Positions 39,864 to 48,686 of a stretch of 64,000 bases of DNA are shown here, in pieces; the first letter of the stretch is position 1; each line of letters starts with the position of its first letter. The DNA is from Methanococcus maripaludis (GTDB lineage: Archaea > AGJL01 > Methanococci > Methanococcales > Methanococcaceae): the NCBI RefSeq assembly GCF_013760955.1, contig NZ_JACDUL010000001.1:86481-150480 (forward strand), written 5' to 3'. Position numbers and translations under genes: made by a program. Under the pieces are notes generated by a model, which was not told the origin of the DNA, searched no databases, and was given only the letters and a program-made list of their open reading frames with translations.

Positions 39864-41888
39864 TTATATTTTTTCCACCTTTGCAGCACATACCTTGTAT
39901 TCTGGGATTTTACAGTTTGGATCCTGAGCAGGATTTGTTAAGATGTTAGCTGCAGTTTCTGCAAAGTGGAACGGCATAAATACAACACCTTGTTTGATAT
40001 TTGGTGTTACTTTCGCATTTACAACGACTTCGCCCCTTCGGGTTGAAACTTTGACTTTCTGTTTGTTTTTAATTCCCATATTTTTGGCATCTTCGGGATG
40101 AATTTCAACAAATCCTTCGTTTATTTCATCAGCCATATGCTTACTTCTTCTGGTCATTGTTCCTGTGTGGTAGTGGAAAATGATCCTACCGGTTGTAAGG
40201 GTCATTGGGTATTCCAAATCTGCCATTTCGTCTGGATCTGCATAGTCTATTGCAAAGATATTTCCAAGTCCATCTGGAGTTAAACATTTTTCACAGTGGA
40301 GAATTGGAGTTCCTGGGTCTTCACAGGTTTTACATGGCCAGTGGAGTCCATCTACACCAAGTCTTTCGTAAGTTACACCTGCGTATTGAGGAGTTACTTT
40401 TGAAATTTCTTGGAATACTTCTTCAGGAGTATTGAAATTAAATAATTCCCCTTGACCCATCTTTTCAGCAATCATTTTCACGATTTTCCAGTCAGCAATT
40501 GCTTCACCAGGAGAATCTACTGCTTTGTTGATTTTTTGGATTCTTCTTTCAGTATTTGAGAAAGTTCCATCCTTTTCAGCCCATGAAGCCCCAGGTAAAA
40601 CTACATCTGCAACCTGTGCGGTTTCTGTTAAGAAAATATCTTGAACGATCAATAAATCAAGGCTTTTCAACGCATGTTCTACGTGGTGAATATCCGGATC
40701 TGAAACCATCGGGTTTTCACCCATTACATAAATACATTTAACCTGTTCTCCAGCTTTTGCAAGCATATCTGGAATCGAAAGACCTACATTTGGATCAACA
40801 GATGTGTTCCATGCTTCTGCATATTTTTCATGGTTTGCAGGAACTGCCTGGTATCCCGGGAATACGTTTGGAAGTGCACCCATGTCACATGCTCCTTGAA
40901 CGTTATTCTGGCCCCTTAATGGATTTACACCAGTTCCCGGTTTTCCAATATTTCCAGTAATCATTGCCAAATTGCAGCAAGATTTTACGTTATTTACACC
41001 GGTTGTGAATTGCGTTATACCCATACAGTAAAGTATCGATGCGGCACCTGCACTACCATACATTTTAGCAGCTTCGACAATTAATTCCGGAGCTACACCA
41101 GATAATTTTGACGCATACTCGGGAGTATAGGTTTCAAGAGTTTTCTTAAGTTCTTCGTATCCTTTTGTCCTATTTTTGATGAATTCTTCATCGATTAATT
41201 TTTCTTTCACGATTACATTCATTATTGCATTTAAAACTGCAATATTTGTACCGGGTAATAACTGTAAGTACAAATCAGCCTGTTTTGCAGTTGGAGTGTA
41301 TCTTGGATCTATTACAATTATTTTAGTTCCCTTTTCTTTTGCACGAACGACTCTTCTCGCAATCAAAGGGTGTTGTTCAAACGTATTTGAACCGATTATG
41401 AATATACAGTCTGCATCTTCTATATCCGAAATTGAATTTGTCATAGCACCTGAACCAAAGGCTTGCCCTAAACCGACCACAGTTGCCGAGTGTCAAAGTC
41501 TCGCACAGTGATCAACATTATTAGTTTTCATTACTGTTCTTGCAAATTTTTGAAATACATAGTTGTCTTCATTGGTACATCTTGCAGATGAAAAGAATCC
41601 GATTTCTTCAGGGGAATAATCTTTTAATTTACCAGAAATCAATTCTAGTGCTTCATCCCATGATGCTTCCACCAATTCTCCATTTTTTCTGATCAATGGA
41701 GTTTTCAACCTATCATCACGGTGTACAAATTCGTGACAATAACTACCTTTAATACAGGTTTTTCCCTCGTTTACAGGGTGTCTTTTAAAAGGATTGGTCC
41801 CAACAAGTTTGCCATCCTTTACTACGAGGTCCACACCGCAACCTGTACCGCAATATGGACAAATCGTATGAATGAAGTTTAATTCCAT
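39864..41888 (-). CDS. fdhA: Formate dehydrogenase, alpha subunit (selenoprotein; UGA = Sec132)
   Basis: A 674-residue molybdo/tungstopterin oxidoreductase read through one in-frame TGA (plus-strand TCA, 41493-41495). Around it the protein reads VDHCARL[12 protein letters not shown], the conserved active-site position that is Sec or Cys in formate dehydrogenases. The N-terminal [4Fe-4S] motif is [14 protein letters not shown] ... TCIKGSYC; the C-terminal molybdopterin-dinucleotide domain follows, with [21 protein letters not shown]. It oxidises formate to CO2. A SECIS-like hairpin lies about 50 nt upstream of the ATG, in the leader. A caller that ends genes at UGA would split it in two. Confidence 0.96.
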
Positions 41889-41939: not shown

Positions 41940-41971
41940 GACGGTGTTCCTAAAAACTGGTTCACACCATC
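41940..41971 (-). promoter_or_regulatory. Archaeal SECIS-like element in the fdhA 5' leader
   Basis: On the mRNA strand GAUGGUGU pairs with ACACCGUC in an 8-bp stem (one G-U). Above it is the asymmetric internal loop GAA opposite a single A, then a CC/GG helix and an 8-nt apical loop AGUUUUUA. This is the layout described for archaeal selenocysteine insertion elements. Most archaeal SECIS lie in 3' untranslated regions; a 5' location is known for methanococcal fdhA. It ends 51 nt before the start codon. Confidence 0.85.
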
Positions 41972-42028
41972 CAGTTGTGCTATTATAATTTATTATGACA
42001 TAATGGATAAGATTAAATGAATAAATTG

Positions 42029-42040
42029 AAATATAAAAAA
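42029..42040 (-). promoter_or_regulatory. Candidate TATA box for fdhAB
   Basis: The minus strand reads TTTTTTATATTT, a methanococcal box A-like sequence. A start about 25 nt further would give a leader of roughly 115-120 nt that includes the whole SECIS hairpin. A second TATA-like sequence (TTATAATA, about 41983-41990) would start transcription within the hairpin and is therefore less likely. Confidence 0.4.
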
Positions 42041-42080
42041 TGGTAGATATAGTTAAGTATTTTATGTAGGCTAATGTAGG

Positions 42081-42106
42081 CAGATAAAGTTAGGCTATTT
42101 TATCTG
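42081..42106. repeat. Perfect 8-bp inverted repeat and GGCTA repeats upstream of fdhA
   Basis: CAGATAAA (42081-42088) and TTTATCTG (42099-42106) form a perfect inverted repeat with a 10-bp spacer. Around it the word GGCTA recurs at about 42069, 42093, 42115 and 42124, including a direct repeat TTTGGCTA twice in 17 bp. The element lies between the carbonic anhydrase stop and the fdhA promoter. No T-run follows on the minus strand, so an operator is more likely than a terminator. The rest of the 304-bp spacer 41889-42192 holds the SECIS, TATA candidate and no supported gene. Confidence 0.45.
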
Positions 42107-42192
42107 AACTATTTGGCTAATTTGGCTAGTTAAACTCTAATGGGTTAGATACGGGATGTGTCCGCCACTCAGGCATCATCCACATTCTAATT

Positions 42193-42645
42193 TTAGGCTA
42201 TTTTTACTAAATCCCCTGATTCAATATCCATTACATATCCATCGATATTGATATCTTTAGGGAATGCAGGGTGGTTTTTCAAAAGTTCAACACCTTCGAT
42301 AACATTGGTTTCTTCGCAGTACATTCTGCCAAGCCATGCTTCAAAATCAGGTGTGAAATTTGGATTTGCACCTCGCTCTACCATTTTTTTCTTAACAGTT
42401 TCAAAGTCTGCAGCTGCCATTCCACAATCTGTATGGCCTATAACCATGATGTCTTCAACATCCAAAAGATATACTGCGATCACTAGTGACCTGATTACAT
42501 CTTCGGTTATGATATTTCCTGCGTTCTTGATTACTTTTGCGTCACCTTGAGCTATTCCGAGCTTTTCGGAAAGGAAGTTGACAAGCCTTGTATCCATGCA
42601 GGTCACAATTGCGAGTTTTTTCTTCGGTTTTGCGTTTTCTCCCAA
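42193..42645 (-). CDS. Beta-class carbonic anhydrase
   Basis: A 150-residue beta-carbonic anhydrase similar to the small methanogen Cab type. Zinc ligands are predicted as Cys16 (with Asp18 and Arg20 in CMDTR), His71 and Cys74 in HTDC. It interconverts CO2 and bicarbonate in the cytoplasm. The location between the formate channel cluster and fdhA suggests a role in handling CO2 produced by formate oxidation or supplied for methanogenesis. GGAGG lies before the ATG (GGAGGTTATAACTTGGG region). It is 20 bp downstream of the membrane/OB gene and co-directional. Confidence 0.93.
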   Translation of the reverse strand: MGENAKPKKKLAIVTCMDTRLVNFLSEKLGIAQGDAKVIKNAGNIITEDVIRSLVIAVYLLDVEDIMVIGHTDCGMAAADFETVKKKMVERGANPNFTPDFEAWLGRMYCEETNVIEGVELLKNHPAFPKDINIDGYVMDIESGDLVKIA

Positions 42646-44061: not shown

Positions 44062-44092
44062 GATATTACCTCCATGTGAATATTGTGGTCTT

Positions 44093-44110
44093 GTGGGGTA
44101 CTACCACCAC
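44093..44110 (-). promoter_or_regulatory. Hairpin in the fdhC leader
   Basis: The mRNA strand reads GUGG-U-GGU-AGU-ACC-CCAC, a 7-bp stem with one bulged U and a three-base loop. It lies between a TATA-like region (AACTATAATATATAATA on the minus strand, about 44119-44135) and the ribosome binding site. It may be an RNA structure or, as DNA, an operator. This is visible in sequence; the role is unknown. Confidence 0.35.
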
Positions 44111-44295
44111 ATATGTATGTATTATATATTATAGTTATCGGTTGAGAACGTATCATAAAGGTTAAATACTGTATTATATTAAAAAAAGAGAGTAATTTAC
44201 ACGTATTAATTAATAATTTTTGTTAATTAATATTAATTAACTTCAAGTTGTTGAAATTTTTTAGTATTCTAACTTTAAAAAAATAAAAAATGGGT

Positions 44296-44541: not shown

Positions 44542-44753
44542 AAGGACACCTCTTAGATATACGCGCCCCACAAAACCATTCATAATTTTGATATTGAAAA
44601 TATATATAATTTATTATCTGGATATTTGTATGTAAAATTATAAAATAAATATTAAGATCATTTTAAGGATAATATTTATTCAAATTTAAAAAAACTCTAA
44701 AAAATCGCCAGTACTCTTTTAAAAATATAATATTTTAAAAAAAATAATTCAGT

Positions 44754-47282: not shown

Positions 47283-48686
47283 GTGGAATTTATCGAATTC
47301 GGGTACGGTACTTCAACAGATGAAAATTCTTTAAAAGCGGGGGCTCATGCTGCATCCAATGCTTTGAAAATGATGAAGAAGTATTCAGAAAAACCAAATA
47401 TTGTATTTTTATATTCTTCTCCAGACTATGATCCTGAAGAAGTTCTTAACGGAGTAAAGTTAATTCTTGGAAACACTGTACAGATAGTCGGTGGAAGTTC
47501 AAAATTCCAAGTTTGTGGAAATAAATTTTTGGAAAACGGGGTTTCGATTGGAATTTTGGGTTCAAAATACTTCAGTACCGGAATGGGTGTCGGACTTGGA
47601 ATTTCGATAAACCCAAAAGAATCGGGAAAAAAAGCAGTTAAAGATGCAGTTGAAAACCTCGGGATGCTTCCAAAATTGCTTTATGTAATAATGGATTTTT
47701 GTAAATGCGAAGAACAGGTTTTAAAAGGAATTGTTGAAGAACTTGGGGTTACAATCCCGATTTTTGGAGGAGTTTCCTCCGATAATTTCGAATTCGAACA
47801 TACATACCAGTATGGAAACGATGTTTATCTCGACAGTATTGTTTGCGTCGCATTTGGTGGGGATATCGTACCAAAAATATCATACAATGACCACGAGTAC
47901 AAAGAACATCATGGAAAATTGGAAAATGTAATAAATAAATCAGAAAAACGTGCTATTGAAGAAATAGGAAATATTTCTGCAATAAAAAGATATATTGAAA
48001 TTTCAGGATATGAGGGTTCTGTAAAAGACCTTGAAAAAGACCCTAAATTCTATTTATCACATCCTTTAGGTATTTTGGATACTGCAGGAGATATCCATTT
48101 TAAAGGTCCGATAGCAATTAAAAATAAAAAATTAATTACAGGGTCCAATATAAGCAACTCAAATGAATTAAAAATAGAAACTATTGATAAAAATGAATTG
48201 AAAAAGATATTTGAAACCAACACAAATGTTTTGAAGAATACTCAACCACATTATGACCCTGCATTTACATTTTACAATATTTCATCGTTTTTATCAGAAA
48301 TTGATCCTGAAGAAATTGAAAAACTGATTGAAAATTCGGATATAAATCCGTTTTTTGGAAGTTCGACTTTTGGAGAAATATCTTTTAGAAAATATGGAAA
48401 CTATTCAATGAGCATGTGTTCTTTTGCACCAGATTTAGTTACGATAAGTGCAAAAGAAGGAATTCACATGTTTACAAAACACCCTGCAACAAAAGAAACA
48501 CTTTTAAAAATCCACGAACTTGGAGGTTCGGTAAAAGTTGAAGAACTTGCAAAATCGCTTGGAATACATAGGAGATCTGCATACGATAGGATCGACCCAC
48601 TCTTAAAATACGGTTTTATCGAAAAAGACCAAGCAGTAATCACTATCACTGACTTTGGAAAACTTCTGCTTAAATTCGAATTTTAA
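47283..48686 (+). CDS. FIST-domain sensor protein with C-terminal winged helix
   Basis: A 467-residue protein. FIST_N covers about residues 25-220 (ALKMMKKYSEKPNIVFLYSSPDYDPEEVLNG, IVGGSSKFQVCG, IPIFGGVSSDNF) and FIST_C about 235-385 (YLSHPLGILDTAGDIHFKGPIAI, NPFFGSSTFGEI). Residues about 400-467 form a winged helix-turn-helix (VKVEELAKSLGIHRRSAYDRIDPLLKYGFIEK, in pieces). FIST domains are predicted ligand sensors, often beside two-component genes; a fused DNA-binding wing makes a one-protein sensor-regulator. It is divergent from the receiver/kinase operon over a 223-bp spacer. Start is GTG with GGTGTTATT upstream. Confidence 0.82.
   Translation: MEFIEFGYGTSTDENSLKAGAHAASNALKMMKKYSEKPNIVFLYSSPDYDPEEVLNGVKLILGNTVQIVGGSSKFQVCGNKFLENGVSIGILGSKYFSTGMGVGLGISINPKESGKKAVKDAVENLGMLPKLLYVIMDFCKCEEQVLKGIVEELGVTIPIFGGVSSDNFEFEHTYQYGNDVYLDSIVCVAFGGDIVPKISYNDHEYKEHHGKLENVINKSEKRAIEEIGNISAIKRYIEISGYEGSVKDLEKDPKFYLSHPLGILDTAGDIHFKGPIAIKNKKLITGSNISNSNELKIETIDKNELKKIFETNTNVLKNTQPHYDPAFTFYNISSFLSEIDPEEIEKLIENSDINPFFGSSTFGEISFRKYGNYSMSMCSFAPDLVTISAKEGIHMFTKHPATKETLLKIHELGGSVKVEELAKSLGIHRRSAYDRIDPLLKYGFIEKDQAVITITDFGKLLLKFEF

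Follow-up and report, generated by a model that had tools for sequence, protein, structure and literature searches.

A conserved 47-bp block upstream of fdhA1 in Methanococcus maripaludis, a candidate control site of narrow range

The gap between the carbonic anhydrase gene and fdhA1 in Methanococcus maripaludis holds a cluster of short repeats, and the question raised by this locus is whether these repeats form an operator of the formate dehydrogenase genes, as the original prediction proposed, and how far among related genomes such a site extends.

Genes and repeats of the fdhA1 region

We analysed a 64-kb stretch of DNA, hereafter the window, which is part of a 1.76-Mb genome (G000). Its minus strand carries the genes RR-HK-SeBP-fdhC-177 aa-carbonic anhydrase (CA)-fdhA1-fdhB, an order from RR to fdhB that largely recurs across the other genomes read, and a FIST protein gene lies beyond RR on the opposite strand. 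The carbonic anhydrase gene (42193-42645, minus strand; Pro_CA) is followed by fdhA1, in which an in-frame TGA is read through and which appears in the open reading frame list as a first part ending at this TGA (41493-41888, minus strand) and a remainder listed from an internal start codon (39864-41480, minus strand). A SECIS-like stem-loop in the fdhA1 leader (41940-41972, minus strand) was recognised by eye from its GAA and opposite A, and a SECIS in the fdhA1 5'-UTR is described in the accessible text of PMC11881835.

The repeats themselves were as predicted. The perfect 8-bp inverted repeat CAGATAAA-N10-TTTATCTG (42081-42106) is exact, with arms at 42081-42088 and 42099-42106 around the spacer GTTAGGCTAT; GGCTA occurs four times on the plus strand (42069, 42093, 42115 and 42124), and TTTGGCTA stands twice in tandem at 42112-42128 (plus strand; starts 42112 and 42121, period 9). 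A fifth GGCTA (42196) belongs to the carbonic anhydrase gene, whose reading frame ends there. Taken by itself, the inverted repeat is weak evidence because such repeats are frequent both in the window, where a search for perfect 8-bp arms 3-15 bp apart gave 45 overlapping matches, and in shuffles of the intergenic region, 14.5% of 200 of which contained at least one perfect 8-bp repeat with a spacer of 3-20 (two were observed). The GGCTA cluster is unusual: no other 70-bp stretch on the plus strand of the window contains a 5-mer with three or more G/C four times, and four GGCTA were reached in 2 of 500 intergenic-region shuffles.

The same gap also holds a kink-turn-like element 3' of the carbonic anhydrase gene (42156-42185, minus strand), TGTG-GAT-GAT-GCC..GGC-GGA-CACA. 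This pattern had nine matches in 8 of 36 genomes, eight of them before fdhA1, against one in the reversed control (G033). Pairing of its stem is kept despite changes in G001 (CG to TA) and G020 (TA to CG); one mismatch occurs in G003, and G023 and G028 have a weak outer stem. The sole match not before fdhA1 (L237, G020:C14:16498-16519) follows an open frame of 389 aa whose end is iron-sulfur-like.

Conservation, range and copy number of the 47-bp core

We read the gap before fdhA1 in 14 genomes of the order; in G028, which is without the carbonic anhydrase gene, it is the gap after the ortholog of the 177-aa gene. The site was present in four of the 14, namely the source genome and the three closest relatives examined (G001, G002 and G003), and their alignment contains a 47-column stretch (columns 170-216) with a single change, corresponding to 42075-42121 on the minus strand and reading ATTAGCCAAATAGTTCAGATAAAATAGCCTAACTTTATCTGCCTACA on the fdhA1 strand. 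On permutation of the columns the longest such stretch averaged 14 and 47 was reached in 0 of 10000 trials, a rough estimate as alignment columns are not independent. Between G000 and G003 the core is identical at 46 of 47 positions and its flanks at 44 of 75 and 67 of 112; four-fold sites of fdhA1, fdhB and the carbonic anhydrase gene are identical at 230 of 405, a background against which 46/47 has a probability of about 1e-10 for a single window, with no correction for how the window was chosen. The same test gave 4e-4 and 1e-4 for the closer relatives G001 and G002. The arms are invariant in all four genomes and the spacer is as conserved as the arms. The core is thus conserved beyond the neutral background, as would be expected of a transcription-factor operator, in a sample of four genomes of which G000 and G002 are little diverged.

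This conservation supports the core and the arms of the proposed operator in all four carriers and does not extend to the GGCTA words, of which there are four in G000 and G002, three in G001 and two in G003. The copies at 42093 and 42115 alone fall within the core; the outer copy on the fdhA1 side (42069-42073, plus strand) is missing in G001 and G003, and the outer copy of the tandem pair (GGCTA at 42124) is missing in G003. The fdhA1 gap of G003 (L179) also contains, upstream of the SECIS, a stretch of about 45 bases (ATATTATTTTTTATATTAAGTACTGATAAAGTAATATAGCACGA) in near-exact tandem repeat.

The comparison with other strains proposed along with the operator gave a similarly divided answer, as repeat and core were kept in the four carriers and the site was absent in the ten other genomes, eight of them from four other genera and two (G004 and G006) from the same genus. 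The fdhA1 gaps of these ten contained no TAGCC and one GGCTA (G028). A search of 22 family genomes for a 32-base core pattern, allowing up to three mismatches, found one copy in each of the four carriers, every time before fdhA1, and no match in the other 18. The second fdh operon had been named as another place to look; the region upstream of fdhA2 is without the 47-bp site and has instead a different box in common with fdhC, whose leader likewise lacks the site. As it is absent before fdhA2 and in 18 of 22 family genomes, the site is not a general fdh operator. Judged by its conservation, it is real and functional, of narrow range.

As an operator may serve several genes, we searched the four genomes for further copies. 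The palindrome with up to three mismatches gave 31, 28, 24 and 19 matches in G000, G001, G002 and G003, and the reversed control 16, 18, 13 and 20; among the matches listed, which cover G000, G001 and part of G002, there was none elsewhere at zero or one mismatch and one at two (G002). TAGCC triplets were present at the locus in G000-G002 and absent in G003, with scattered matches in other genomes, and this search also returned the common TAGCCATTGTAGCCCGCGTGTAGCC, which we take to be 16S rRNA. Pairs of TAGCCWAA numbered 3, 2, 3 and 1 in G000, G001, G002 and G003, all at the fdhA1 locus, against one in all in the control, and the left half with up to three mismatches had one other match (G001), the control also giving one. 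A regulon was rejected on these searches, which gave no sign of one and no other convincing copy in the four genomes.

A single block in few genomes might also be a binding site of a chromatin or replication protein, or a relic inserted in an ancestor of the species, with no role in fdh expression. The distance from the kink-turn-like element to the SECIS is 199-283 nt in the four carriers and 128-153 nt in four genomes of two other genera, as if the block had been inserted; across genera the kink-turn region aligns poorly, and only lengths were taken from this alignment. Against these possibilities stand the tight constraint on the core, next to flanks that change freely, and the core's fixed place before fdhA1; the viral contigs scanned contained no match to the site. 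We consider this explanation very unlikely.

A protein-binding site in DNA or an element of the leader RNA

The original prediction placed the repeats before an fdhA promoter, for which the sequence and the published transcripts speak differently. The best TATA match between the repeat and fdhA1 (100 nt) is 7/8 and was equalled or bettered in 584 of 1000 mononucleotide shuffles of that stretch; no TATA box better than shuffles is visible there, and none at the same place in G003. The match lies within a conserved 27-nt block (42016-42042, minus strand), identical at 24 of 27 positions between G000 and G003 (3.5e-4 for a single window) and at 23 of 27 across all four genomes, which is a candidate core promoter of fdhA1B1. 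What argues for a promoter is the published transcript data. Upon selenium depletion in M. maripaludis the SeBP and fdhC mRNAs reportedly fall by 2.4 and 2.7 log2 and the fdh mRNAs stay high, in a region previously found to be co-transcribed; the authors conclude that its promoters are incompletely mapped (PMC11097638). The simplest account of these data is an unmapped promoter between fdhC and fdhA1, for which the 47-bp block is the strongest candidate control site; alternatively, the 3' part of the transcript may be selectively stable.

As for the regulator, the original prediction regarded it as not established. This stands insofar as the literature found, much of it available in part, names no DNA-binding protein for fdh; it needs qualifying in that fdhA1 mRNA reportedly rose, and growth on formate slowed, when the response regulator encoded upstream of fdhC was disrupted (Sattler 2013, via PMC10025317). 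This response regulator has, in the window, a receiver domain only. The accessible text of PMC10025317 further describes fdhC to fdhB as a putative five-gene operon and an fdhC-lacZ fusion as responsive to H2.

We favour, at a probability of about 0.6, the explanation that a protein binds 42075-42121 as DNA and that this site controls a promoter internal to the cluster, which serves fdhA1B1 and is distinct from that of fdhC. The protein would be a sequence-specific transcription factor that binds, probably as a dimer, to CAGATAAA/TTTATCTG in double-stranded DNA and makes further contacts to the TAGCC words, and the bound site would control a promoter at the TATA-like block that transcribes fdhA1-fdhB1 separately. 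As the site lies about 40 bp upstream of that block, an activator would fit better than a blocking repressor. Several observations point to such a DNA site: the constraint on the core relative to flanks and four-fold sites, the one copy per genome always before fdhA1, the perfectly symmetric arms, which enclose one TAGCC word and have further copies next to them, and an RNA fold no better than shuffles. The selenium response argues in the same direction (PMC11097638); SeBP and fdhC have the fdhC-type box described below and the fdhA1 gap has none. Against it stand the lack of a TATA box better than shuffles or at the same place in G003, the lack of a regulon, and the small set of four carriers with G000 and G002 nearly alike. 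It is uncommon for a plain dimer site to have a spacer conserved equally with its arms, as this one has, and if fdhC-fdhB is one operon, as PMC10025317 puts forward in the part available, the stretch may be part of a long mRNA.

In such a mRNA the block could act as an RNA element in the leader of the long fdhC-fdhB transcript. Its arms would pair into a hairpin whose loop is conserved, and this hairpin, acting together with the kink-turn-like element and the SECIS, would determine how the fdhA1 part is processed, how stable it is or how it is translated. The block indeed lies in an intergenic gap of the putative operon (PMC10025317, accessible text) and between the SECIS and the kink-turn-like element, which varies as RNA would; loop and flanks are conserved equally with the arms, the TATA box is not demonstrable, and selective stability of the fdhA1B1 part would explain the reported transcript levels as well (PMC11097638, accessible part). 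The fold itself does not bear this out, since a 61-nt stretch scored z -0.44 against shuffles and longer stretches -0.51, +0.45 and -0.95. No compensatory changes occur in the arms, which is uninformative as the arms never vary. No Rfam family was found on the block above gathering score, at which the window yielded tRNAs only; a permissive scan added weak snoRNA matches only, none on the core. We regard an RNA role as possible, if rather doubtful.

The two modes of action might also be combined. A composite leader made up of the 47-bp block, with the kink-turn-like element on one side and the SECIS of the 5'-UTR on the other, could make fdhA1B1 independent of the fdhC promoter: the DNA site would fire a standby promoter whose transcript carries the SECIS, and the long fdhC messenger would carry the kink-turn (an L7Ae site) as well. 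Such an arrangement, which we think unlikely, would mean two fdh control systems in one cluster, with an order-wide box and the FIST-winged-helix protein (see below) directed at formate transport and selenium handling, and a clade-specific site at enzyme supply.

Archaeal activator and operator sites, e.g. those of SurR or Lrp-type regulators, are likewise short symmetric sites upstream of metabolic operons. The 47-bp block differs from them in its conserved spacer with an extra word, its occurrence as one site per genome and a protein that is only putative, and its sequence differs from the SurR site GTTn3AAC (given in the accessible part of PMC10025317). Within the genus, the LysR-type HrsM has a target between frc and vhc (PMC11097638 and PMC5322559, in their accessible parts), and selenoprotein genes were down in an hrsM mutant in one report cited by PMC5322559. 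The likeness is a selenium-linked control of methanogenesis genes in the same genus; the differences are that no second copy of the core or palindrome stands out in motif searches of the genome, and that fdh transcripts are reported as selenium-independent (PMC11097638, accessible part). We rate HrsM low as a binder of the block. In the literature found, as far as accessible, the DNA-binding proteins of the H2/formate switch in methanococci are not worked out; the site offers a 47-bp bait and a deletion target for fdhA1B1, both precisely delimited, and it marks a specific candidate for the unmapped promoter inferred in PMC11097638.

The fdhC-type box and a candidate regulator

The box before fdhC (44081-44117, minus strand, in the fdhC leader of the window; from profile and motif searches) is described here for comparison. 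Like the 47-bp block it is a conserved site before fdh genes; unlike it, it has another sequence, with the consensus TATGTG-N10-ACCCCACAAGACCACAA, and stands before fdhC, SeBP and fdhA2 and not before fdhA1, where it was found in 0 of 14 genomes. Among 36 genomes of the order, the 13-mer CCCACAAGACCAC matched exactly at 25 places, spread over 17 genomes, and the reversed control matched nowhere. Of these matches, 21 lie before fdhC, SeBP or fdhA2 (13 genomes; in G000 before fdhA2 at C3:319269-319285), and the other four (G011, G031, G032 and G034), with no such neighbour in the sequence printed, were excluded from the profile. With a degenerate box before fdhC in G008 (score 40.8) the total is 14 genomes. 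By eye, a TATA-like sequence lies shortly upstream of the box.

Upstream of SeBP (PF11524, 44296-44583) the box is reversed, and the window copy is degenerate (44547-44583, plus strand). Scored in twelve genomes, this region had a clear box in G008, G015, G019, G020 and G023, and G028 has one that is clear in the profile search, the scored stretch having missed it. The score was low in G000, G001 and G002, yet above the best of 100 shuffles; G003 and G009 have the core CCCCACAA only, not exceeding shuffles, and scoring gave no box in G006. The two orientations argue for action as DNA rather than RNA, and a pseudoknot that we had considered for the box was dropped, the same box being reversed before SeBP. 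Allowing up to two mismatches, a further intergenic-looking copy (GCCCCACACGACCACAA), with no clear gene adjoining, is common to G000 (L229, C3:89725-89741), G001 (L228, C1:626201-626217) and G002 (C1:1208741-1208757); the reversed control had one match each in G002 and G008.

Found in five genera, the fdhC-type box is likely a DNA operator and a better candidate than the 47-bp site for a general fdh switch. A joint response of SeBP and fdhC to selenium has been reported (PMC11097638). No title or abstract that we found names the 47-bp site or the fdhC-type box; most subscription papers lay outside the search, and absence from print is not claimed.

A protein that might read this box is encoded by the FIST gene (47283-48686, plus strand), whose product has a conserved winged-helix-like region at its C-terminus. 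All seven orthologs scanned matched Pfam TrmB with E below 0.1 (best 6.2e-5); the window protein matched at E 0.0042, below Pfam's cut-off. A profile of the region retrieved the solved chains 2x4h (E 0.0012) and 1sfx (E 0.008), presumably both winged-helix regulators. Of the 36 genomes, 14 have an ortholog (over 250 bits; the next match had 58), and these are the very 14 with fdhC and the box; G021, in which the carbonic anhydrase gene and fdhA1 are present, lacks fdhC, box and FIST ortholog alike. By this association alone the FIST-winged-helix protein is a candidate DNA-binding regulator of the fdhC-type box, and box and candidate together allow the fdh switch to be tested directly in an archaeon amenable to genetics. 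The FIST and fdhC genes of G015 and G020 sit on separate contigs, fdh lying close to the end of one, which is uninformative on linkage. In G008 and G009 they lie far apart on the same contig, so that linkage alone does not explain their co-occurrence.
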